From positions 7,040,001 to 7,104,000 of the forward strand of contig NZ_CP022203.1 of the NCBI RefSeq assembly GCF_002305895.1: a stretch of DNA of 64,000 nt. Direction: 5' to 3'. Shown here piece after piece: positions 1 through 48,795 of this stretch; positions within the stretch are counted from its first letter, which is position 1; each line of letters starts with the position of its first letter. The position numbers and the translations under genes are program-made. The notes below the pieces were generated by a model that was not told the origin of the DNA, did no database searches, and was given only the letters and a program-made list of their open reading frames with translations. Origin of the DNA: Corallococcus macrosporus DSM 14697 (GTDB taxonomy: Bacteria > Myxococcota > Myxococcia > Myxococcales > Myxococcaceae).

Positions 1-150
1 ACCAACCCGCTCAACCAGCAGTACCCCCGCGCGGACCCGCTGCCCAAGGAGCTGCTGCCGGACTTCCTCGCCAAGGCGCAGGAGCTGACGGCGCAGATGG
101 AGGCCGTGTCCGTGGCCGCCGTCGCCGGGAAGGCCGCGGCGCTGCCTTGA
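1..150 (+). CDS. C-terminal end of an unidentified protein (partial)
   Basis: Frame 1 is open from the window edge to a TGA at 148-150 and encodes the last 49 residues of a protein whose start lies outside the window. The tail is rich in Ala, Leu, Pro and Glu and looks helical, with no motif I recognise. Codon use matches the neighbours, with G or C at most third positions, which supports real coding. The next gene is convergent and begins about 50 bp away. Function cannot be given from this fragment. Confidence 0.6.
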   Translation, partial: TNPLNQQYPRADPLPKELLPDFLAKAQELTAQMEAVSVAAVAGKAAALP

Positions 151-198
151 GGCCCTGACACCGCGCGCCCCGTTCGCGGGCCGCGCGCCGCGGTGGGC

Positions 199-783
199 CT
201 ACTCCCAGGTGATGACGTAGTCGGCGCCGCTCACGCCACGCGGCGTGCCCACCACCCGGCTCTTGCAGCCGATGACGCTCAGCGCCTCCTGCAAGACGCC
301 CTCGTGGTACTGCACCGGCTGCATGTCCCCGTGGAAGGCCAGGCGCACCTGCTTGTCCCCCAGCACCGCGTATTCACGCCGGCCGTAGCTCACCAGCGTG
401 GAGTACGCGGTGGGCGCGTGGGACAGGAGCCGCTTGGGGTCTCCCTTGCCGATGAGCCGGTTGAGCGTCTGCCCCACCGTGGACTGGAAGAAGTGCGTGA
501 CGGCCGCTGCGCCGCAGGCCCGCACCGCGTCCTCCATGGCGCCGTAGACGGGCGTCAGCGCCTCCGACGTGGCGTACAGCAGGCGCAGGGCGTCCACCGC
601 CGGATAGGAGAAGAAGTCCACCGGCGAGCGCTTGAAGAAGGGCTCCCGCAGCCGCGTGGCCGCCTCCGCGCCGAGCTTCTTCTCCGCCAGGTTGAACACC
701 GCGTTGAAGATGAGCCCGCGCACCGTGTCTTCAGGCCGGATGACAGCCAGCCGTTGTTCAAGGTCGCTCGTCGGAAAACCCAT
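199..783 (-). CDS. DUF2378 / TIGR02265-family protein restricted to Myxococcales
   Basis: This 194-residue soluble protein has no signal peptide. The order of features matches the lineage-restricted family in which myxobacteria carry many paralogues: an N-terminal segment with DTVRGLIFNAVFN (about residues 19-31), a central F-FSYP stretch, and a C-terminal beta-rich half ending in GVSGADYVITWE. The length is close to the usual 180-200 residues. The biochemical role of the family is unknown; some members sit beside regulators. The start at 783 lies only two bases from a perfect 9-bp inverted repeat (786-809), which leaves no obvious Shine-Dalgarno outside that structure, so expression may be controlled there. 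Confidence 0.8.
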   Translation of the reverse strand: MGFPTSDLEQRLAVIRPEDTVRGLIFNAVFNLAEKKLGAEAATRLREPFFKRSPVDFFSYPAVDALRLLYATSEALTPVYGAMEDAVRACGAAAVTHFFQSTVGQTLNRLIGKGDPKRLLSHAPTAYSTLVSYGRREYAVLGDKQVRLAFHGDMQPVQYHEGVLQEALSVIGCKSRVVGTPRGVSGADYVITWE

Positions 784-39805: not shown

Positions 39806-41377
39806 GTGCGCAGAGTAGGCATCTTCGGCTGGGGCGTGGTCGCCCCCCGGTCCAGGAACATCGAGGCGTTCGAGCGCAACCTCTCGTCGTCCGAAAGCTG
39901 GCTGTCCCCCTTCAACGGCTTCGGCCCCGACAACTTCCTCGTCGGTATGCCGGAGTTCGACCTGGCCGACTACAAGCCGTGGATTGACGCGCGCTTCCCG
40001 GGCAGCCGCTTCTCGCAGTTGGAGCGGAAGATGGGCCAGCCGACCCAGTACGCCATTGGCGCCTTCATCCAGTCGCTGGCGCAGAACCCGGGCCTGGAGC
40101 AGGAGCTGCAGGCGCTGGGGCCCCGCGCGCACGTCTACGTGGGCACGGGCCTGGGCGACCTGCCCACCATCCGCTCCATCTCCCTGGACCTGTACCGCGC
40201 CCAGCGCCGGTGGGACCGCTTCTGGGCCGCGCCGGAGCGCAACAGCGCCCTGCGCCAGTGGCGCGAGACGCAGGAGCCGCTGCCCGGCCTCCCGCCGGAG
40301 CCCTCCACGGTGGACGAGGCCACGCGCGACGAGGCCGAGGACGCGTGGTGGCACTTCTGGGCCGGCCGCTCGCCGGAGCTGCGCGAGTACCTGGACGAGC
40401 TGCGCGAAATCGAAGCCATTGGCGTGCCGGACGACGGCGACGTGGAGTCCGCCAAGCTGGCCGTCATCAAGGAGAAGCGCACCCGCAACGCCCGGCTCCA
40501 GAAGAAGTGGATGTCGCCGGAGCCGCCGTGGAACGCGGTGTCCTCCAACGTGCTGTGGAACATCCACAACACGCCGGCCTCGCAGATTTCGATGATGGGC
40601 CGCATCACCGGCATGACGTTCGCCCCGGTGGCCGCGTGCTCGTCCTTCGGCTACGGACTGCGGCTGGCCCTCAACGCCATCCAACTGGGCCAGGCGAAGG
40701 CCGTGGTCATGGGCATGACGGACCCGCCGCCCATGCCGCTCACCGTGGGCGGCTTCTACAACGCCCGCGTCATCTCCGCGGACGCCGCCCTCTCCAAGCC
40801 GCTCACCGCGCTGCGCGGCACGCACATCGCGGGAGGCTCCGTGGTGTGGGTGCTGGGGGACTTGGAGCACTTCACGGCCAGGGGCTTCAAGCCGCTGGGC
40901 ATGGAGCCCGTCACCGTGGGCGTCACCGCGGACGCGGACCACATCATCACGCCGTCCAAGGAAGGCCCCACGCTGGCCATCCGCGAGGCCCTGGGCGCGG
41001 CCGGCATCGCCCCGGAGGACGTGGGGAGCTGGGACTTGCACGCCACCGCCACCCCGGGTGACTTCCTGGAGGTGCAGAACCTGCGGGACGTGCTGCCCGA
41101 GCAGGTGCTGATCACGGCGCGCAAGGGCACCTTCGGCCACGGCATGTCCGCGGGCGGCGGCTGGGAGCTGACGGCCCAGTACCTGGGCTACGGCCAGGGC
41201 AAGGTGTTCCCCACCCCGCTGCAGGAGGCGGAGCTCAACAAGCAGATCTCCCGCGTCCACGGCCGCTTCGTCTTCGACGAGGCCGTGCCGGCGCCCGCGG
41301 GCTGCGCGGGCAAGCTGTCCATGGGCGTGGGCGGCATCAACGCCTGCGTCATCTCCCGCCCCTGGCCGAAGGAGTAG
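39806..41377 (+). CDS. Beta-ketoacyl synthase with a long internal insertion
   Basis: The 523-residue protein keeps the ketosynthase Cys-His-His set: Cys278 in VAACSSFGYG, His412 in DLHATATPGD and His445 in GTFGHGMSAGG, so condensation of acyl and malonyl thioesters is possible. FabF-type enzymes are about 410-420 residues. The extra 110 or so residues lie between VGTGLGDLPTI and LWNIHNTPAS and are Trp/Arg/Glu-rich (about residues 120-235). The start is GTG with AAGGA nine bases upstream. No acyl-carrier protein, ketoreductase or acyltransferase is adjacent; instead it follows a ConA-like membrane protein. It may act in a lipid or secondary-metabolite pathway. Confidence 0.82.
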   Translation: MRRVGIFGWGVVAPRSRNIEAFERNLSSSESWLSPFNGFGPDNFLVGMPEFDLADYKPWIDARFPGSRFSQLERKMGQPTQYAIGAFIQSLAQNPGLEQELQALGPRAHVYVGTGLGDLPTIRSISLDLYRAQRRWDRFWAAPERNSALRQWRETQEPLPGLPPEPSTVDEATRDEAEDAWWHFWAGRSPELREYLDELREIEAIGVPDDGDVESAKLAVIKEKRTRNARLQKKWMSPEPPWNAVSSNVLWNIHNTPASQISMMGRITGMTFAPVAACSSFGYGLRLALNAIQLGQAKAVVMGMTDPPPMPLTVGGFYNARVISADAALSKPLTALRGTHIAGGSVVWVLGDLEHFTARGFKPLGMEPVTVGVTADADHIITPSKEGPTLAIREALGAAGIAPEDVGSWDLHATATPGDFLEVQNLRDVLPEQVLITARKGTFGHGMSAGGGWELTAQYLGYGQGKVFPTPLQEAELNKQISRVHGRFVFDEAVPAPAGCAGKLSMGVGGINACVISRPWPKE

Positions 41378-41399
41378 GGGCGGAGGCGCGCCGCGGGGC

Positions 41400-41951
41400 T
41401 CAGGGGTGTGCGGCCAGCGCCTCCGCGTCGAGGCGCGCGGCCGCCTCCGGGTCACTCAGGCGCAGAATCTCCAGCTCGATTTCCAAATCCCGGAAGTAGT
41501 TCTGCCGCGTCGGCAGGACGCCGCTGGCCTGGCTGTCGTTGACGGCCTGGGCGTATTCCTCCTCCGTCTTGATTTCCCTGTCCACGTAGCCCACGCCAAT
41601 GGACTGGGTGATGCGGTCGCCGCGCATCACCCGCAGGGCCGTGCCGCCGCTGGCGAGCACGATGCCCTGCACCAGGAAGCGGGACGCCGTGCCGGGCCCC
41701 AGGCTGCCGCCGCCGGAGTCCAGCCACTCCGTCTCCAGCACGTAGCGGCCCGGCATCTCCTTCCAGGAGTAGCCGTGGCTGCGCAGCACCTCCTGGACGT
41801 GGGGCCACAGCTCCGCCAGCTCCTTGCGGTAGACGTGGTCGGCCGCCTTGTCGCGCACGTAGTTCTTGCGCAGCGAGCTGGAACAACCCGTGAGCGTCAG
41901 CAGCGTGGCGACGACGAGACACACTCCCGCGAGGCGGGTGGAGCGGTGCAT
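41400..41951 (-). CDS. Hypothetical lipoprotein
   Basis: The 183-residue protein has a signal peptide with lipobox LTGCSSS near residue 22. The mature domain reads DKAADHVYRKELAELWPHVQEVLRSHGY, then RYVLETEWLDSG and a basic-acidic C-terminal helix. The layout resembles short lipoproteins that contact membrane or cell wall, but I do not recognise the family. It is convergent with the ketosynthase gene, 22 bp away, and 95 bp from the sigma-factor gene. Confidence 0.7.
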   Translation of the reverse strand: MHRSTRLAGVCLVVATLLTLTGCSSSLRKNYVRDKAADHVYRKELAELWPHVQEVLRSHGYSWKEMPGRYVLETEWLDSGGGSLGPGTASRFLVQGIVLASGGTALRVMRGDRITQSIGVGYVDREIKTEEEYAQAVNDSQASGVLPTRQNYFRDLEIELEILRLSDPEAAARLDAEALAAHP

Positions 41952-42046
41952 GGGGGGTCCCCTGAGGGTGCGAGGGCGAACGGCCGGGTGGCCCCCAGCA
42001 TATCGCCAGTGCCCGGCCGCATGCCCGGCCCCCCCTCCCCCAGCCG

Positions 42047-43153
42047 TCAGACCTTGGGGCTGGCCACCAGGTCGAAGTCCGGGATGTGTTCGCGCATGAA
42101 CTCACGCATCCGGTTGATGAGGGCCGCCTCGATTTGCCGGGCCCGCTCCCGGCTGACGCCGTACTTGTCGCCAATGTCCTGGAGCGTGAGGGGCTCGTCG
42201 GAGATGAGGCGGCTTTCGAAGATGTAGCGCTCCTTGCCCTCCAGCGTCCGGGCGAACTCGGAGAGCTTCTCCCGGAAGAGGGCCTTGAGCTGCTCGGCGC
42301 CCAGGCGCTCGTCCGCCGGCATGGAGTTGGACGGCAGGTAGCGGTCCGCCCGGGTGGCCCGGGAGTCGTCGTCGTTGCCCAGGGGCGCGTCAATGGACAT
42401 CTCGTCGTGCCCCAGCCGCTGGTCCATCTCCACCACGTCCTGCTCGGTGACGTTCAGCCGCTCGGCGAGCAGCTTGGGGCTGGCCTCGAAGCCCTGGGCA
42501 ATGAGCTTCTCCTGCTCCTGGCGCAGCTTGAAGAAGAGCTTCCGCTGGGCCTCGGTGGTCCCCAGCTTCACCATCTTCCAGTTGTCCATGATGTAGCGGA
42601 GGATGTACGCGCGAATCCACCACGCGGCGTAGCTGCTCAGCTTCACGCCGCGCTCCGGGTCGTACTTCTTCACCGCCTGCATCAACCCGATGTTCCCCTC
42701 CTGCACCAGGTCCAGCAGGGAGAGCGGGTTGCGGTGGTACTCGTGCGCCAGCTTCACCACCAGGCGCAGGTTGGACGCCACCAGCCGGTAGGCGGCGTTC
42801 ACATCGCCGGATTCCTTGTAGTGCCGGGCGAGCTGGAGCTCCTCCTCCCGGGACAACAGGGGGTGGCGCTGCACCTCGGCCATGTAGGCCTGGAGCGGAT
42901 CCCTCGGGGTGAGCCCCGCCTCGCCAGCACGCACCAGGGCCCGGGGGGGCGCCACGGGGGTGCTCAGGTCCGCCTCTGGCTCCACGTCCTCCAGCTCGGC
43001 CGCGTCCGGTTCCAGGGAATCCGGGTCCGTTTGGGCCTCGACCTCCGCCCCCTCCACCTCGGCGTCCACGGCGTCGCCAGCCCCTGGCGAGGCCGGCCGC
43101 TTCGCGCGGGGTCGGGGGGACGTACCTTTGGTTCTTTTCCTCCCATTCGCCAT
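42047..43153 (-). CDS. Sigma-32-like RNA polymerase sigma factor with acidic N-terminal extension
   Basis: The 368-residue protein has an acidic Pro/Glu/Asp-rich extension (about residues 1-75), then region 1.2 (DPLQAYMAEVQRHPLL), region 2 with NLRLVVKLAHEYHRNPLSLL and WWIRAYILRYIMDNW, an RpoH box (QRKLFFKLR) typical of the sigma-32 group, and region 4 HTH SRERARQIEAAL. It would direct RNA polymerase to a class of promoters, possibly in heat or developmental stress as for other myxobacterial sigma-32-like factors. The ATG at 43153 has GGAG five bases upstream; a longer frame begins at 43243 in non-conserved sequence. It is divergent from the helicase gene. Confidence 0.9.
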   Translation of the reverse strand: MANGRKRTKGTSPRPRAKRPASPGAGDAVDAEVEGAEVEAQTDPDSLEPDAAELEDVEPEADLSTPVAPPRALVRAGEAGLTPRDPLQAYMAEVQRHPLLSREEELQLARHYKESGDVNAAYRLVASNLRLVVKLAHEYHRNPLSLLDLVQEGNIGLMQAVKKYDPERGVKLSSYAAWWIRAYILRYIMDNWKMVKLGTTEAQRKLFFKLRQEQEKLIAQGFEASPKLLAERLNVTEQDVVEMDQRLGHDEMSIDAPLGNDDDSRATRADRYLPSNSMPADERLGAEQLKALFREKLSEFARTLEGKERYIFESRLISDEPLTLQDIGDKYGVSRERARQIEAALINRMREFMREHIPDFDLVASPKV

Positions 43154-43221
43154 GGGGGCTCCATACAGCAAAGTGCCGCGATTGTTGCCACAGGGTAATG
43201 CAGGGGCTATGCCCATGCCCG

Positions 43222-45645
43222 ATGAGCGACATCCAAGAGCCAAACGTGCCGGGGAGTCCGGCGCCTGACGAAGCCCCGACGCGTCCCGCCGAGTACATCG
43301 CGGACATCGGCTTCGACGACATGAACCTGTCAGAGCCCATCCGCCAAGCGCTGGCGGAGCGCGGTTATACCAACCCCACCCCCGTCCAGGCCCGCGCCTT
43401 CCGGCCCGCCATGGAGGGAAAAGACCTCATCGTCCGCAGCAAGACAGGCACCGGAAAGACGGCCGCCTTCGGACTTCCCCTGCTGGAGAAGATTCCCGCC
43501 GACGAGCGCCGCGTGCGGGCGCTCATCCTCTGCCCCACCCGCGAGCTGGCCCTCCAGGTGGCGGACGAGCTGAAGATGCTCGCCAGGCACAAGGGCCTGA
43601 AGGTCGCGGCCATCTACGGCGGCGCCTCCATGAAGCAGCAGGAGGACGCGCTGGAGGAGGGCACGCCCATCATCGTCGGCACGCCGGGCCGCGTGTTCGA
43701 CCACATCAACCGCGGCAACCTGAAGCTCGACGCGTGCGACCACGCCGTCCTGGATGAAGCGGACGAGATGCTCAACCAGGGCTTCTACGAGGAGGTGACG
43801 CGCATCCTCGACCGCCTCCCCAAGACGCGCCAGGTGCTGCTCTTCAGCGCCACCGTCCCCACGGACATCCAGAACCTCATCGCGCGCTACACGACGAACG
43901 CGGAGACGCTGCTGCTGTCCGGCGACGTCTTCACGGTGGAGCACATCCACCACATCCGCTACGACGTGTCGGACGCCTTCCCCAAGCCGCGCAACCTCAT
44001 CTACGTGCTGGAGAAGGAAGAGCCGCAGAACGCCATCATCTTCTGCAACACCCGCGACGACACGGCGCTGGTGACGGCGGTGCTCAACCGCAACGGCTTC
44101 GACGCGGAGCTGCTCAACGGGGACCTGCCGCAGAAGGAGCGCGAGCGGGTGATGGGCAAGGTGAAGCGCGGCGAGGTGGCCTTCATGGTCGCCACGGACA
44201 TCGCGGCGCGCGGCATCGACATCTCCGGCCTGGAGTACGTCATCAACTACTCGCTGCCGGAGGACCCGGCGGTGTACCTGCACCGCGTGGGCCGCACCGG
44301 CCGCATCGGGAACAAGGGCACCGCCATCAACCTCTTCTCCGGGCGCGAGCTGGCCACGTACACCGCGCTGGAGAAGAAGTACGGCATCAAGTTCGACAAG
44401 CGCGAGATGCCGGCCCCGGAAGAGGCCATGCGCCTGTGGACGGAGCGCCACGTGCGCGAAATCCAGGAGGCCGCGGGCGGCTCCGTCTTCGAGGGCTTCC
44501 TGCCGCTGGCCGCGCAGCTCAAGCCGCGCGCGGACGCGGATGACCTCATCGCCTTCCTGCTCAAGTACTTCTTCAGCCACCTGCGCATGGAGAAGGCCGC
44601 CGCGGCGATGGCGGCCGAGGGGCGTGAGCCGCCGCCGGAGCGCAAGTTCGAGAGCCGCGAGGGCGGCCGGCGCGAGCGCGGTGAGCGCAAGGAGCGTGGC
44701 GACCGGCGCGAGCGCGGTGAGCGCGACGACCGGCGCGAGCGGCGCGGTGAGTCCTCGGAGCGCGAGCGCCGGCCCCGCCGTGAGGAGTCGCGGCGCGAGC
44801 GCGGCGGCGAGGCTGGCCGTGGCGCGGCGGCGCTGGAGGCCGGCCCTGGCGAGGCCAAGCTGTGGGTGAACCTGGGCACGGCGGACGGCCTGGGGCCGGG
44901 CAGCATCGCCACCGCCCTGGAAGACGCGGGCGCCCCGGTGGGCAAGGTGGTGCGCGCCGAGCTGCGCCCCACCTTCGCGTACGTCTTCGTGGCGGAGGAG
45001 GACGCCGCCGCCTTCGAGACGCTCAACGGCAAGCAGCACGGCGCCAAGACGCTGCGCGTGGAGAAGAGCAAGCCGCGCACGGAGCGTGACGCCACGCCCC
45101 GCCCGCCCCCGTCCCCGGACGCGGGCCCCGGCGAGGCGAAGCTGTGGATCAACCTGGGCATGGACGACGGCATGGACGAGGCGAAGCTGCCCGCCGCGCT
45201 GGAGGCCGCGGGCGCCCCGGCCGGCAAGGTGCTGCGCGCCCTGCTGCGCCCCACCTACGGCTACGCCTACGTGGCCGAGGACGACGCGCCCGGCTTCGAG
45301 GCCGTCAACGGCAAGCTCCATGGCGAAAAGGCGCTGAAGGTGGAGCGGCACCGTCCGCGCGGTCAGCGGCCTGAGCGCCGCCCCCGCACCGAGGCCCTGC
45401 CGGAGATTGCTGGCCAGACGCGCCTGTGGGTGGGCCTGGGCAAGCAGGACGGGCTGGACGAGGCGGGCGTGGCCGCCGCGCTGGAGGCCGCGGGCGCTCC
45501 GGCCGGCAAGGTGCTGCGCACGGACCTGCGCCCCACCTACGCGTACGTCTTCGTCGCCGACGAGGACGTGGCGGCCTTCGAGGCCACGCACGGCAAGCCC
45601 CACGGCGAGCGCACGCTCAAGGTGGAGCAGGCCAAGCGGAAGTAG
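43222..45645 (+). CDS. DEAD-box RNA helicase with three C-terminal DbpA-type RNA-binding domains
   Basis: The 807-residue protein has a full helicase core: Q motif, RSKTGTGKTAAF (I), PTRELA (Ia), TPGR (Ib), LDEADEML (II), SAT (III) and HRVGRTGRIG (VI) in the first 400 residues. A basic, Arg/Glu-rich linker (about 470-540) with many RRERGER-like steps follows. Then come three repeats of about 75 residues, each opening AKLWVNLG, AKLWINLG or TRLWVGLG and closing on GKQHGAK/GKLHGEK/GKPHGER, that match the DbpA RNA-binding domain. DbpA itself has one. It probably remodels ribosomal RNA or other RNA. The start at 43222 is preferred over 43198. Confidence 0.9.
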   Translation: MSDIQEPNVPGSPAPDEAPTRPAEYIADIGFDDMNLSEPIRQALAERGYTNPTPVQARAFRPAMEGKDLIVRSKTGTGKTAAFGLPLLEKIPADERRVRALILCPTRELALQVADELKMLARHKGLKVAAIYGGASMKQQEDALEEGTPIIVGTPGRVFDHINRGNLKLDACDHAVLDEADEMLNQGFYEEVTRILDRLPKTRQVLLFSATVPTDIQNLIARYTTNAETLLLSGDVFTVEHIHHIRYDVSDAFPKPRNLIYVLEKEEPQNAIIFCNTRDDTALVTAVLNRNGFDAELLNGDLPQKERERVMGKVKRGEVAFMVATDIAARGIDISGLEYVINYSLPEDPAVYLHRVGRTGRIGNKGTAINLFSGRELATYTALEKKYGIKFDKREMPAPEEAMRLWTERHVREIQEAAGGSVFEGFLPLAAQLKPRADADDLIAFLLKYFFSHLRMEKAAAAMAAEGREPPPERKFESREGGRRERGERKERGDRRERGERDDRRERRGESSERERRPRREESRRERGGEAGRGAAALEAGPGEAKLWVNLGTADGLGPGSIATALEDAGAPVGKVVRAELRPTFAYVFVAEEDAAAFETLNGKQHGAKTLRVEKSKPRTERDATPRPPPSPDAGPGEAKLWINLGMDDGMDEAKLPAALEAAGAPAGKVLRALLRPTYGYAYVAEDDAPGFEAVNGKLHGEKALKVERHRPRGQRPERRPRTEALPEIAGQTRLWVGLGKQDGLDEAGVAAALEAAGAPAGKVLRTDLRPTYAYVFVADEDVAAFEATHGKPHGERTLKVEQAKRK

Positions 45646-45649
45646 TCCC

Positions 45650-46162
45650 TCAGGCGCCGCCGGTCCCCGGACCGGCGGCCTTCCTGCGCCGCTCACGGTG
45701 GTAGTGGGCGGCGCACAGGCCCCGGGCGAGCACCGGCTTCTGACAGCCGGGCTCGCCGCAGCGGGCGGGCTCGGGCCGCTCAGGCGCCGTGTCCGCCGCC
45801 GCGGGTGAGGGCTCGCTGAACATCACCTCCGCCACCGACAGCAGCCGGTCCACGTCCGCGCGCGACAGGGCGCGGCCCCGGACGAAGGCCTCCAGCCGGT
45901 GGACGCCCGCGTCCCGCGTGTCCTCCAGCCGCAAGAGCTCCCACAGCGGGAGCTGGAGCGCGGAGGCCACCTGGAGCAGCGTCTCGTAGCTGGGGCTGCG
46001 CTCGCCGCGCTCCAGCAGGGACGCGAAGGACACGGAGATGCCGCAGCGGGCGGCGAGGTCCTCCTGAGTCATGCCCCGCCGCTCCCGCAGCGCCCGGATG
46101 CGCCGGGCCAGTCCCTGGAGGTGTCCACTCACGGTGGAAGCGTCCGGCGGTTCGGGCGGCAT
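45650..46162 (-). CDS. XRE-family transcriptional regulator with C-terminal Cys/His motif
   Basis: The 170-residue protein has an N-terminal helix-turn-helix of the XRE/Cro type (residues 18-75: MTQEDLAARCGISVSFASLL, ERGERSPSYETLLQVAS). The middle is helical. The last 40 residues hold CGEPGCQKPVLARGLCAAHY, a Cys/Cys...Cys/His arrangement likely to bind zinc. It should bind DNA as a dimer, with the tail acting as a metal- or nucleic-acid-binding module. AGGA lies seven bases before the ATG. It ends 4 bp from the helicase stop and is divergent from gdhA. Confidence 0.8.
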   Translation of the reverse strand: MPPEPPDASTVSGHLQGLARRIRALRERRGMTQEDLAARCGISVSFASLLERGERSPSYETLLQVASALQLPLWELLRLEDTRDAGVHRLEAFVRGRALSRADVDRLLSVAEVMFSEPSPAAADTAPERPEPARCGEPGCQKPVLARGLCAAHYHRERRRKAAGPGTGGA

Positions 46163-46233
46163 GGCAGTTTCCTATGGTAGCGCACCCCTTCTGTTAAGGT
46201 CTCGCGCGCCGCCATCCAGGAGTCTGCCGACAC

Positions 46234-47463
46234 ATGAGCGCCGTCGAGGGTACCAACTACTACTTCCGCAAGGCCGCGCGGATCATGGACGTGGGAACCC
46301 CCATCGAGACGCTGCTCGCCACGCCCCTGCGCGAGGTGAAGGTCCAGGTCTCCATCGAGATGGACTCCGGGGAGATTCGCACCTTCCTCGGCTACCGCAT
46401 CCAGCACGACAACAGCCGCGGCCCCATGAAGGGCGGCCTGCGCTACCACCCGCTGGTGGACCAGGACGAGTGCGCGTCGCTCGCGTCGCTGATGACGTGG
46501 AAGACGGCCGTGGTGAACGTCCCCTACGGCGGCGCCAAGGGCGGCATCGCGTGCGACCCGTCCCAGCTCAGCGTCAAGGAGCTGGAGCGCCTCACCCGGA
46601 AGTTCGTGGACCAGGTGCAGGACGTCATCGGCCCCACGCGGGACATCCCCGCCCCCGACGTCAACACCAACCCCCAGGTGATGGCGTGGATCATGGACCA
46701 GTACTCGCGCTACCACGGCCACTCGCCCGCGGTGGTGACGGGCAAGCCGCTGGAGCTCTACGGCTCCAAGGGCCGCGAGGCCGCCACCGGCCGCGGGCTG
46801 CTCTACGTGGCGCGTGAAATCCTGCGGGATTTGGGCCTGCAGGTGCGGGGCACGCGCTTCGCGCTCCAGGGCTTTGGCAACGTGGGCAGCCACACCGCGC
46901 AGCTCCTCTGGGAGGACGGCGGCGTGGTGGTGGCGGTGGCGGACGCGCTGGGCGGCGTGCGCAACCCGCAGGGCCTGGACATCCCCTCCCTCTTCGAGCA
47001 CGTGAAGCGCACCGGCACGGTGACGGGCTTCGGCGGCGGGGCTTCGTGCAGCAACGAGGACGTGCTGGGCGCGGACTGCGAGGTCCTCATCCCCGCCGCG
47101 CTGGGCCACGTGCTCACCCGGGAGAACGCCCACGCGGTGCGCGCCCGGCTCATCATCGAAGGCGCCAACGGCCCCACCCAGCCGGAGGCCGACGAGGTCT
47201 TCGAGAAGCGCGGCATCTTCGTGGTGCCGGACGTGCTGGCCAGCGCGGGCGGCGTGACGGTGAGCTACTTCGAGTGGGTGCAGAACCTCCAGCACCTGTC
47301 GTGGGAGGAGGACCGCGTCAACGCGGAGCTGGAGAAGTCCATGAAGGAGGCCTACGAGCGCGTGGCGCAGGTGGCGCGCTCCCGCAAGGTCTCCATGCGG
47401 ACGGCCGCGTACATCCTGGCCATTGGCCGGGTGGGCAAGGCCACCGTGCTGCGCGGCATCTGA
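46234..47463 (+). CDS. gdhA: Glu/Leu/Phe/Val-type dehydrogenase (probable glutamate dehydrogenase)
   Basis: The 409-residue enzyme has the substrate-binding motif GPMKGGLRYHP, the catalytic-lysine region PYGGAKGGI, PAPDVNT, and a nucleotide fold with LQGFGNVGS. It would convert glutamate and 2-oxoglutarate with NAD(P). The C-terminal EGANGPTQPEADE and VSYFEWVQNLQ are diagnostic of glutamate dehydrogenase. The length is typical (about 410). AGGAG lies upstream at a spacing of about 11. The threonine ammonia-lyase gene follows after 114 bp, linking two amino-acid deaminating enzymes. Confidence 0.93.
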   Translation: MSAVEGTNYYFRKAARIMDVGTPIETLLATPLREVKVQVSIEMDSGEIRTFLGYRIQHDNSRGPMKGGLRYHPLVDQDECASLASLMTWKTAVVNVPYGGAKGGIACDPSQLSVKELERLTRKFVDQVQDVIGPTRDIPAPDVNTNPQVMAWIMDQYSRYHGHSPAVVTGKPLELYGSKGREAATGRGLLYVAREILRDLGLQVRGTRFALQGFGNVGSHTAQLLWEDGGVVVAVADALGGVRNPQGLDIPSLFEHVKRTGTVTGFGGGASCSNEDVLGADCEVLIPAALGHVLTRENAHAVRARLIIEGANGPTQPEADEVFEKRGIFVVPDVLASAGGVTVSYFEWVQNLQHLSWEEDRVNAELEKSMKEAYERVAQVARSRKVSMRTAAYILAIGRVGKATVLRGI

Positions 47464-47577
47464 CGCGGCCGGCCGTGTCACGCGCTGGACGTGGCGCGGC
47501 GCGGCAGGCAGCGGGCGGAGCGGGCTTCCTCCACCTGTCTCTTCCGCGACGGGCGCGCTTCCGATAGAGGCGCGAAC

Positions 47578-48795
47578 ATGGTCACCCTCGAGGACATCCA
47601 GGCCGCGCGCGAGCGCCTTCGCTCGGCCATCCGCCCCACGCCGTGCCCGCAGTCGGACTACTTCACGGAGCGGACGGAGTGCGCCGCGGTGTACTTCAAG
47701 CTGGAGAACCTCCAGCGCACCGGGGCCTTCAAGGAGCGCGGCGCCCTCAACAAGCTGCTGACGCTGACCGAGGACGAGCGGCGCCGGGGCGTCATCGCCG
47801 CGTCGGCCGGCAACCACGCGCAGGGCGTCGCGTACCACGCGCGGCGGCTGGGCGTGAGCGCCACCATCGTCATGCCGGAGCGCACGCCCCTCATCAAGGT
47901 GTCGCGCACGCGGGATGACTACGGCGCGCGCGTGGTGCTCAAGGGCACCAACTACGACGAGGCCTACGCGGAGGCGCTGCGCATCCAGAAGGCGGAGGAC
48001 CGCGTCTTCATCCACCCCTTCAATGACGCGCACGTCATCGCCGGCCAGGGCACCATCGGCCTGGAGCTGCTGGAGCAGTGCCCCGACCTGGAGGTGGTGC
48101 TGGTGCCCATCGGCGGCGGCGGGCTCATCTCCGGCATCGCGTGCGCGCTGAAGGAGACGCGGCCCGGCATCCGCGTGGTGGGCGTGCAGGCGGAGACCAT
48201 CGCCAGCATGAAGGCGTCCATGGAGGCGGGCGAGCGCGTGCTGCTGGCCGCCGCGGGCACCACCATCGCGGACGGCATCGCCGTCAAGCGCGTGGGCGAC
48301 CTCACCTTCCCCATGGTGCAGAAGTACGTGGACGAGGTGGTGGCGGTGGACGAGGAGGAGATTGCCGCCGCCATCCTCACCCTCCTGGAGCAGGAGAAGA
48401 GCGTGGTGGAGGGCGCGGGCGCGGTGGGCGTGGCGGCGCTGCTCAGCGGCGACGTGCCCTCGGCGCGGGGCCGGCGCACCGCCGTCATCCTCAGCGGCGG
48501 CAACATCGACATGAACGTCATCAGCCGCATCATCGAGCGCGGCCTGGTGAAGGCCGGGCGCCTGGTGCAGTTGGAGGTGCGGCTGCCGGACCGGCCCGGC
48601 ATGCTGGCGAAGCTCACCACGCAGGTGGCGGACCTGCGCGCCAACGTGGTGGAGATCCACCACGAGCGCGCCTTCTCCAAGGCGGGGCTGGGGGAGGCCA
48701 TGGTGGAGGTGACGCTGGAGACCACCGGGCCTGCGCACATCGAGGAGCTGGAGCGCGCGCTCCACAAGCTGGGCTGGCAGGTGGCGCGCAAGTAA
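47578..48795 (+). CDS. ilvA: Threonine ammonia-lyase with ACT domain
   Basis: The 405-residue PLP enzyme has ENLQRTGAFKERGA with PLP-lysine about residue 52, ASAGNHAQGVAYHA, and the phosphate loop PIGGGGLISG. The last 80 residues form one ACT domain (EVRLPDRPGMLAKLTTQV), which typically gives allosteric control by isoleucine or other effectors. It would deaminate threonine (or serine) to 2-oxobutyrate, for isoleucine synthesis or catabolism. The ATG at 47578 is chosen over an upstream in-frame start that adds 29 poorly conserved residues. It is near glutamate dehydrogenase. Confidence 0.92.
   Translation: MVTLEDIQAARERLRSAIRPTPCPQSDYFTERTECAAVYFKLENLQRTGAFKERGALNKLLTLTEDERRRGVIAASAGNHAQGVAYHARRLGVSATIVMPERTPLIKVSRTRDDYGARVVLKGTNYDEAYAEALRIQKAEDRVFIHPFNDAHVIAGQGTIGLELLEQCPDLEVVLVPIGGGGLISGIACALKETRPGIRVVGVQAETIASMKASMEAGERVLLAAAGTTIADGIAVKRVGDLTFPMVQKYVDEVVAVDEEEIAAAILTLLEQEKSVVEGAGAVGVAALLSGDVPSARGRRTAVILSGGNIDMNVISRIIERGLVKAGRLVQLEVRLPDRPGMLAKLTTQVADLRANVVEIHHERAFSKAGLGEAMVEVTLETTGPAHIEELERALHKLGWQVARK

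Follow-up and report, generated by a model that had tools for sequence, protein, structure and literature searches.

A Corallococcus DEAD-box RNA helicase with three tandem DbpA-type domains that carry canonical RRM aromatics

Introduction

Does a DEAD-box helicase with three DbpA-type RNA-binding domains read hairpin 92 of the 23S rRNA, as DbpA does with one, or have its domains been turned to another use? The question is raised by a gene at 43222..45645 (+) in a 64,000-nucleotide stretch of the Corallococcus macrosporus DSM 14697 genome, hereafter the window. A single RRM is the organisation of DbpA described in the available part of PMC7973409. In the literature covered, which took in few subscription papers, we found no bacterial DEAD-box helicase with tandem or three RRMs (or tandem DbpA domains), and no experimental work on the Myxococcus xanthus orthologue; the available parts of PMC6627406 and PMC9100584 treat helicases in general terms only.

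Results

Layout of the gene and its protein

The open reading frame is intact and encodes 807 aa counted from the ATG at 43222, the mechanically called frame beginning at an in-frame ATG at 43198. Pfam finds DEAD (4.6e-48), Helicase_C (1.4e-35) and, in three stretches, DbpA (1.7e-17) in the whole protein. The helicase core (residues 28-397, 43303..44412, +) was delimited by Pfam, translation and PDB sequence match, and SKTGTGKT, DEAD, SAT and HRVGRTGR, which we take to be the named motifs of such cores, were all read in its translation; with both domains and the conserved motifs present, the protein is a DEAD-box RNA helicase. The near relatives that could be named belong to Myxococcus, with Myxococcus sp. 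CA023 at 97%.

The C-terminal part holds three RRM units with limits set by our unit profile, all on the + strand: U1 (residues 542-617, 44845..45072), U2 (residues 636-711, 45127..45354) and U3 (residues 730-805, 45409..45636). A Pro/Arg-rich spacer (45073..45126, +) separates U1 from U2 and a basic spacer (45355..45408, +) separates U2 from U3, both seen in the translation and the AlphaFold2 model. Scanned singly against PF03880 (cutoff 25.6 bits), U1 (35.7 bits) and U3 (28.2 bits) pass and U2 (15.8 bits, E 0.014) falls below, although the whole protein passes. The original prediction of three tandem DbpA-type domains at the helicase C-terminus is thus borne out by the three Pfam stretches, by three predicted RRM folds and by the identity among the units; its statement that each unit matches the DbpA pattern is right, with the proviso that U2 by itself stays under the cutoff. 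The refuting outcome that it named, a profile search missing the second and third units, did not occur: U3 passes and U2 matches weakly. Mutual identity among the three units is 59-61% in protein and 74-75% in DNA, which establishes the homology of U2 independently of Pfam; U2 is a clear homologue despite its sub-cutoff score.

The units are predicted to fold as RRMs and carry aromatics at canonical RNP positions

An AlphaFold2 model of the tail (29 alignment rows) contains three beta-alpha-beta-beta-alpha-beta domains, with pLDDT of at least 90 at 176 of 274 residues; the spacers between the RRMs are of low confidence, and a pTM of 0.40 gives no confident mutual arrangement. The top structural match of this model was the E. 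coli DbpA RRM 7pmq (Z 10.7, rmsd 2.0, 79 aligned). DbpA RRMs rank first by structure (Z 10.7, 10.6 and 9.9), slightly above canonical RRMs (9.0-9.7), with YxiN 3moj at 8.9, in a comparison that covers chiefly U2 and U3 and barely tests U1.

The RNP positions of the units follow another pattern. The combination W/F/Y, F/Y and F/Y at unit positions 7, 44 and 46, which we take to be RNP2 position 2 and RNP1 positions 3 and 5, is present in 147 of 151 units, and positions 44 and 46 align with the beta3 aromatics of the canonical RRMs of hnRNP Q and RBM14. The four exceptions are the U2 units of loci L067-L070, which lack the beta1 Trp. The set occurs in 0/28 other DbpA-domain helicases and in 0/7 units of distant orthologues, and is absent from YxiN, E. 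coli DbpA and DeaD in our alignment. In the model of each unit W7 lies in beta1, Y46 in beta3 and position 44 just before beta3; that the aromatics are surface-exposed is read from strand position and alignment. Since single-unit relatives within the family also carry the aromatics, their gain predates the copying of the unit.

A profile built from 17 units was compared with PDB sequences. It matched hnRNP Q (6kor, whole-sequence E 0.0014) and RBM14 (2dnp, E 0.0028), and unit positions 44 and 46 fall on the beta3 aromatics of canonical RRMs in its alignment; the best single stretch of 6kor reached E 0.13, a weak match by sequence. Neither DbpA nor YxiN appears among the 33 PDB matches listed with E up to 10. 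None of the units had Pfam RRM_1 among its matches with E of 10 or less, in a HMMER search whose filters drop weak matches. Together, structure and residues suggest that the units probably descend from the DbpA type yet acquired surface features of canonical RRMs.

The most natural reading of three such units would be multivalent RNA binding, as the original prediction suggested. Counting against it, U1-U3 have a net acidic composition, with pI values of 5.6-5.8 where the DbpA-like domain encoded elsewhere in the genome has 10.1, which is unusual for RNA binders; two single-unit relatives have pI values of 8.8 (basic) and 6.8 (near neutral). This acidity would suit RRMs that serve chiefly as protein-protein modules docking partners such as a degradosome or ribosome factor, with RNA bound by the core and the basic linkers, and the Foldseek and VIA structural match lists do include protein-contacting RRMs such as NONO/SFPQ and raver1. 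RRMs that dock proteins often lose their RNP aromatics, however, and here the set is nearly invariant, so that we regard a mainly protein-docking role as unlikely and continue with RNA binding by the units as the preferred reading.

Copy number rose within one lineage and probably more than once

The unit profile was searched over 195 genomes of the phylum, 96 of them in the family Myxococcaceae, where the tail search gave a match in 94 of the 96 genomes. Of the family genomes, 64 contain three unit matches, 3 contain two, 27 a single one and 2 none at all; in at least 5 of the 64 three-match genomes the matches are split over two contigs. Every one of the 20 family genomes assembled into at most three contigs shows the three-unit state, and the genomes with two matches (G060, G062 and G098) are drafts of at least 820 contigs. 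By locus, 69 were taken for counting, 30 of them from the tail search, and 67 with a core identity of at least 70% remained after two contig fragments (L090, L099) were dropped; 41 have three units, 24 have one and 2 have two.

The two-unit genes belong to Corallococcus llansteffanensis and C. exercitus (L102/L132 and L103/L126), and the unit tree identifies U1 as the missing one in each. We think that they probably reflect assembly collapse rather than real loss of U1, because both genomes are drafts (G062 with 1240 contigs, G060 with 960) and five other drafts (G064, G065, G067, G115 and G119) split the gene over two contigs at the U1/U2 junction. No 31-mer is repeated among the window's own units, which share few long words, and collapse is thus unproven. 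In draft assemblies of Myxococcus and Corallococcus (L115/L137, L118/L136, L119/L139, L120 and L121/L140) the break lies at the junction of U1 with U2, and gene annotations based on drafts of this kind will be cut short or lack a unit.

Beyond the family, the search at E 1e-6 gave matches in 38 genomes. In 37 of them the match is single; the remaining genome, G163, has two matches 69 bases apart in a single 746-aa helicase frame. This locus (L158, G163:C11:28900-32500), which belongs to the same class but a different family, encodes two very similar tandem units and a long Arg/Asp-rich linker, and is probably a separate and younger duplication. A PF03880 scan of 16 other genomes of the order found no two matches together in one gene.

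Phylogeny places 63 of the 64 three-match genomes in one lineage. A core tree computed with a quick method gives SH-aLRT 95 to the main three-unit clade, which comprises 15 three-unit and 2 two-unit rows, and leaves the three-unit gene of G086 outside it. In the two unit trees, main-clade U1 and U2 units join in a single common group (support 96/93 in the first tree and 97/94 in the second), the U3 units lie outside this U1/U2 group among single units, and the second and third units of G086 are sisters (97/90 in the first tree). An AU test rejected the joining of the first and second G086 units to the main U1/U2 clade (p-AU 0.022) and did not reject the grouping together of all three G086 units (p 0.092); the groups compared were named after the first tree was seen, and the unit alignment of 76 columns has limited resolution. 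A single origin of all three-unit genes is accordingly disfavoured for G086, and there were probably three independent increases, in the main clade, in G086 and in G163. Concerted evolution was ruled out for the main clade, where units cluster according to position, U1 with U1 and U2 with U2. In 9 of the 10 other three-unit loci compared, units at the same position in different genomes are more alike than the units of one genome are to each other; the exception is L071 of G086, and U2 of L070 is also low.

The units are under purifying selection and keep their own residues

In seven pairs of loci, dN/dS was 0.05-0.29 for U1, 0.20-0.64 for U2 and 0.09-0.45 for U3; every unit in every pair lies below 1, and 6 of the 7 pairs have their highest value in U2. 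The units are under purifying selection. Position 39 is acidic in U1 (41/41), aliphatic in U2 (41/41) and acidic in U3 (40/41) of the 41 three-unit loci, many of which are close relatives. As each unit keeps residues of its own, the units are probably not interchangeable.

These data bear on constructive neutral expansion, in which a tandem duplication in the flexible tail was fixed with no functional gain. Its appeal is that there were seemingly several expansions in the phylum and that U2 evolves faster. The persistence of three units in every family genome of few contigs, and of three matches in two thirds of the family, the conserved unit-specific residues and the constraint on every unit nevertheless make such an origin quite unlikely, and we retain multivalent RNA binding as the preferred function of the array.

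The hairpin-92 contact glycines are missing from the units

In the available part of PMC3695512, the main-chain amides of YxiN I436, G437 and I439 contact a guanine, G423 and T424 provide the packing site for a later nucleotide, and K427 makes a contact with a uridine; the guanine site of Hera is the same (V461, G462, V464). The original prediction mentioned the 23S rRNA hairpin read by standard DbpA proteins and named loss of RNA-contacting residues as a refuting outcome, which is what we find at two YxiN contact positions. In a MAFFT alignment, glycine stands at the YxiN G423 and G437 positions in 0/151 units and in 28/28 comparison DbpA-domain helicases; the latter were chosen by high PF03880 score, so that glycine conservation is expected among them and the informative part is the zero in the units. 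The comparison set comprised 31 loci (L001, L002 and L007-L035), of which 28 were used: L030 is not among the aligned sequences, and two others, L021 and L024, were left out as their aligned tail is not the domain. As contacts 436, 437 and 439 are made by the main chain, a changed side chain is no proof by itself of lost binding. Single-unit relatives in the family also lack the glycines, so their loss predates triplication. Among the seven units of distant orthologues, glycine occurs at the G437 position in two, both of G163, and at the G423 position in none.

The loss at G437 depends on the alignment, and that at G423 does not. MAFFT places no gap near G437, which corresponds to unit position 36; a hand alignment that paired the glycine of the unit 'GKV' motif with G437 needed a 4-residue gap and was dropped. 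Under it, the position-33 glycine present in 136/151 units would count as a kept G437. YxiN K427 was left out as evidence because it is not conserved in E. coli DbpA. In the loop that is a run of basic residues in YxiN and DbpA, the units have K/R at position 12 in 61/151 and at position 13 in 1/151.

Two further genes of the genome clearly encode a DbpA domain, with one unit each: a frame of 604 aa lies at C1:4755919 and one of 480 aa at C1:7872253. There is also a weak DbpA-domain match of 14.6 bits. The domain of the 480-aa frame matches E. coli DbpA 7pli (E 1.5e-16), and this gene is likely the true DbpA of the genome; the window helicase is a third helicase, different from both. Transfer of the hairpin-92 role to the units is not supported, with the glycines gone, the units acidic and loop K/R few, and recognition of the hairpin by all three units was ruled out on contact residues. 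A ribosome-assembly helicase of the DbpA type in which each unit reads hairpin 92, the role implied by the original prediction, would agree with DbpA RRMs as best structural match and with the Pfam assignment of PF03880, but is very unlikely given the missing glycines, the separate DbpA-like gene and a score of 390.7 bits against the 524-bit cutoff of the DbpA equivalog NF008744, whose best stretch is the core only.

Linker and post-core helices

Between core and units lie three predicted helices (residues 399-465, 44416..44616, +; block pLDDT 55-75), tentatively a CshA-type dimerisation domain, and an Arg/Glu-rich linker (residues 466-541, 44617..44844, +) recognised by composition. The NCBIfam CshA model spans residues 31-452 of the helicase. 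Among the 50 entries of the VIA structure comparison, the CshA structures 9a76 (an integrative model) and 5ivl reach 1..426 and 3..419, and the other 48 end at or before 382. This extension of the CshA entries past the core suggests, for the modelled helices, a dimerisation domain of the CshA/Hera type; the helicase would then perhaps be a dimer with six RRMs.

Of 82 aa in the linker region, 25 are R and 20 are E, and no Pfam match lies within 44542-44850. It had been called strongly Arg/Glu alternating; the alternation is real and modest, with 22 opposite-charge neighbours in residues 463-541 against a shuffled mean of 15.0, a value equalled or exceeded in 52 of 5000 shuffles. At 44661-44746 the linker is encoded by short DNA repeats, with periods of 36 and 9 bases, which may give rise to variation in linker length.

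A conserved sigma-factor neighbour

A sigma-32-type sigma factor gene (42047..43153, -) diverges from the helicase; it scores above the cutoff of NF005143 and below that of the RpoH equivalog model. The sigma gene lies upstream of the helicase in 28/28 named loci with enough upstream DNA, among one-unit (L129, L130, L131 and L133) and three-unit relatives alike. The other eight of the 36 loci stand outside this count: L116 and L126 have short upstream DNA, L136-L140 hold the 3' part only, and L141 is a non-orthologue. This old pairing suggests that the two genes may share stress-related regulation. On the other side, a convergent HTH_3 (Cro/C1-type) protein is encoded at 45650-46162 (-), and its C-terminal Cys/His stretch matches a WRKY19 zinc-finger model below cutoff. 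No Rfam element reached the gathering threshold within 41300-47600. A record titled Comamonas sp. KCTC 72670 (L107) contains a 96% identical helicase in conserved Myxococcus gene order, and its title is probably a mislabel.

Discussion

On balance we favour, with somewhat better than even confidence, a CshA/DeaD-like helicase, perhaps dimeric, whose flexible multivalent RRMs would take single-stranded RNA on their canonical face. In this account, a lone ancestral RRM of the DbpA type would have lost the glycines that recognise hairpin 92, and in the Myxococcaceae lineage would have gained the canonical RNP set, a Trp on beta1 and two aromatics on beta3; the altered RRM would then have been copied to three. 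We propose that single-stranded RNA may bind to the canonical beta-sheet face of the units, and that avidity would keep long RNA segments, or several of them, in place as duplexes close by are unwound by the core. Sequence, model and phylogeny establish the domain layout, the lost and gained residues, the distribution of copy number and the purifying selection; RNA binding, the face used, dimerisation, avidity and the role in the cell belong to the proposal. The helicase would act as a general high-affinity RNA chaperone or unwindase, and not as a 23S hairpin-92 factor.

A bolder extension is conceivable but doubtful: that myxobacteria turned a ribosome-specific DbpA-type RRM into a canonical single-strand binder and amplified it more than once, making a bacterial counterpart of the eukaryotic multi-RRM mRNP proteins that acts on many mRNAs, possibly in condensates aided by the Arg/Glu linker, in stress or multicellular development. 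The annotation 'DbpA RNA-binding domain' need not mean 23S hairpin 92, and the series of one, two and three units on related cores is a natural set for the effect of RRM number on affinity, processivity and targeting.

The characterised bacterial helicases compared here (DbpA, YxiN, DeaD/CsdA and Hera) have one RRM-type domain each. DbpA and YxiN share the RRM fold of the window units (7pmq Z 10.7, 3moj Z 8.9) but, in the available literature, have one RRM that reads hairpin 92, and the two contact glycines of that RRM are missing from the window units. E. coli DeaD/CsdA resembles the window protein in its core (37% identical over 413 aa), an Arg-rich region and a DbpA-type tail domain; it differs in having one unit, which keeps glycine at the G423 and G437 positions and which the unit profile barely matches (-1.9 bits). 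The window protein also stays under the CsdA/DeaD equivalog cutoffs (NF008642, 326.3 against 989 bits; NF053636, 303.9 against 890).

CshA supplies the best PDB match of the core (5ivl, E 8.5e-90) and the best NCBIfam model (412 bits), named 'degradosome RNA helicase CshA', and the post-core helices align; the 412 bits remain under the 646-bit cutoff of CshA model NF053631. In the available part of PMC8190605, CshA has no DbpA domain, against three in the window protein, and DeaD has one DbpA-type domain in its tail. Thermus Hera, which has a core, a dimerisation domain and a modified RRM in the available part of PMC3695512, is similar in plan, and its structure 4kbf is a PDB match of the core; however, as described there, it has one RRM that takes RNA on the face opposite to that of classical RRMs, whereas the window units carry the classical-face aromatics three times over.

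Tandem RRMs with RNP-type aromatics are also a feature of Prp24, U2AF65 and the hnRNPs, eukaryotic multi-RRM proteins that to our knowledge lack a DEAD-box core; the likeness of the window helicase to them may be convergence on a common fold.
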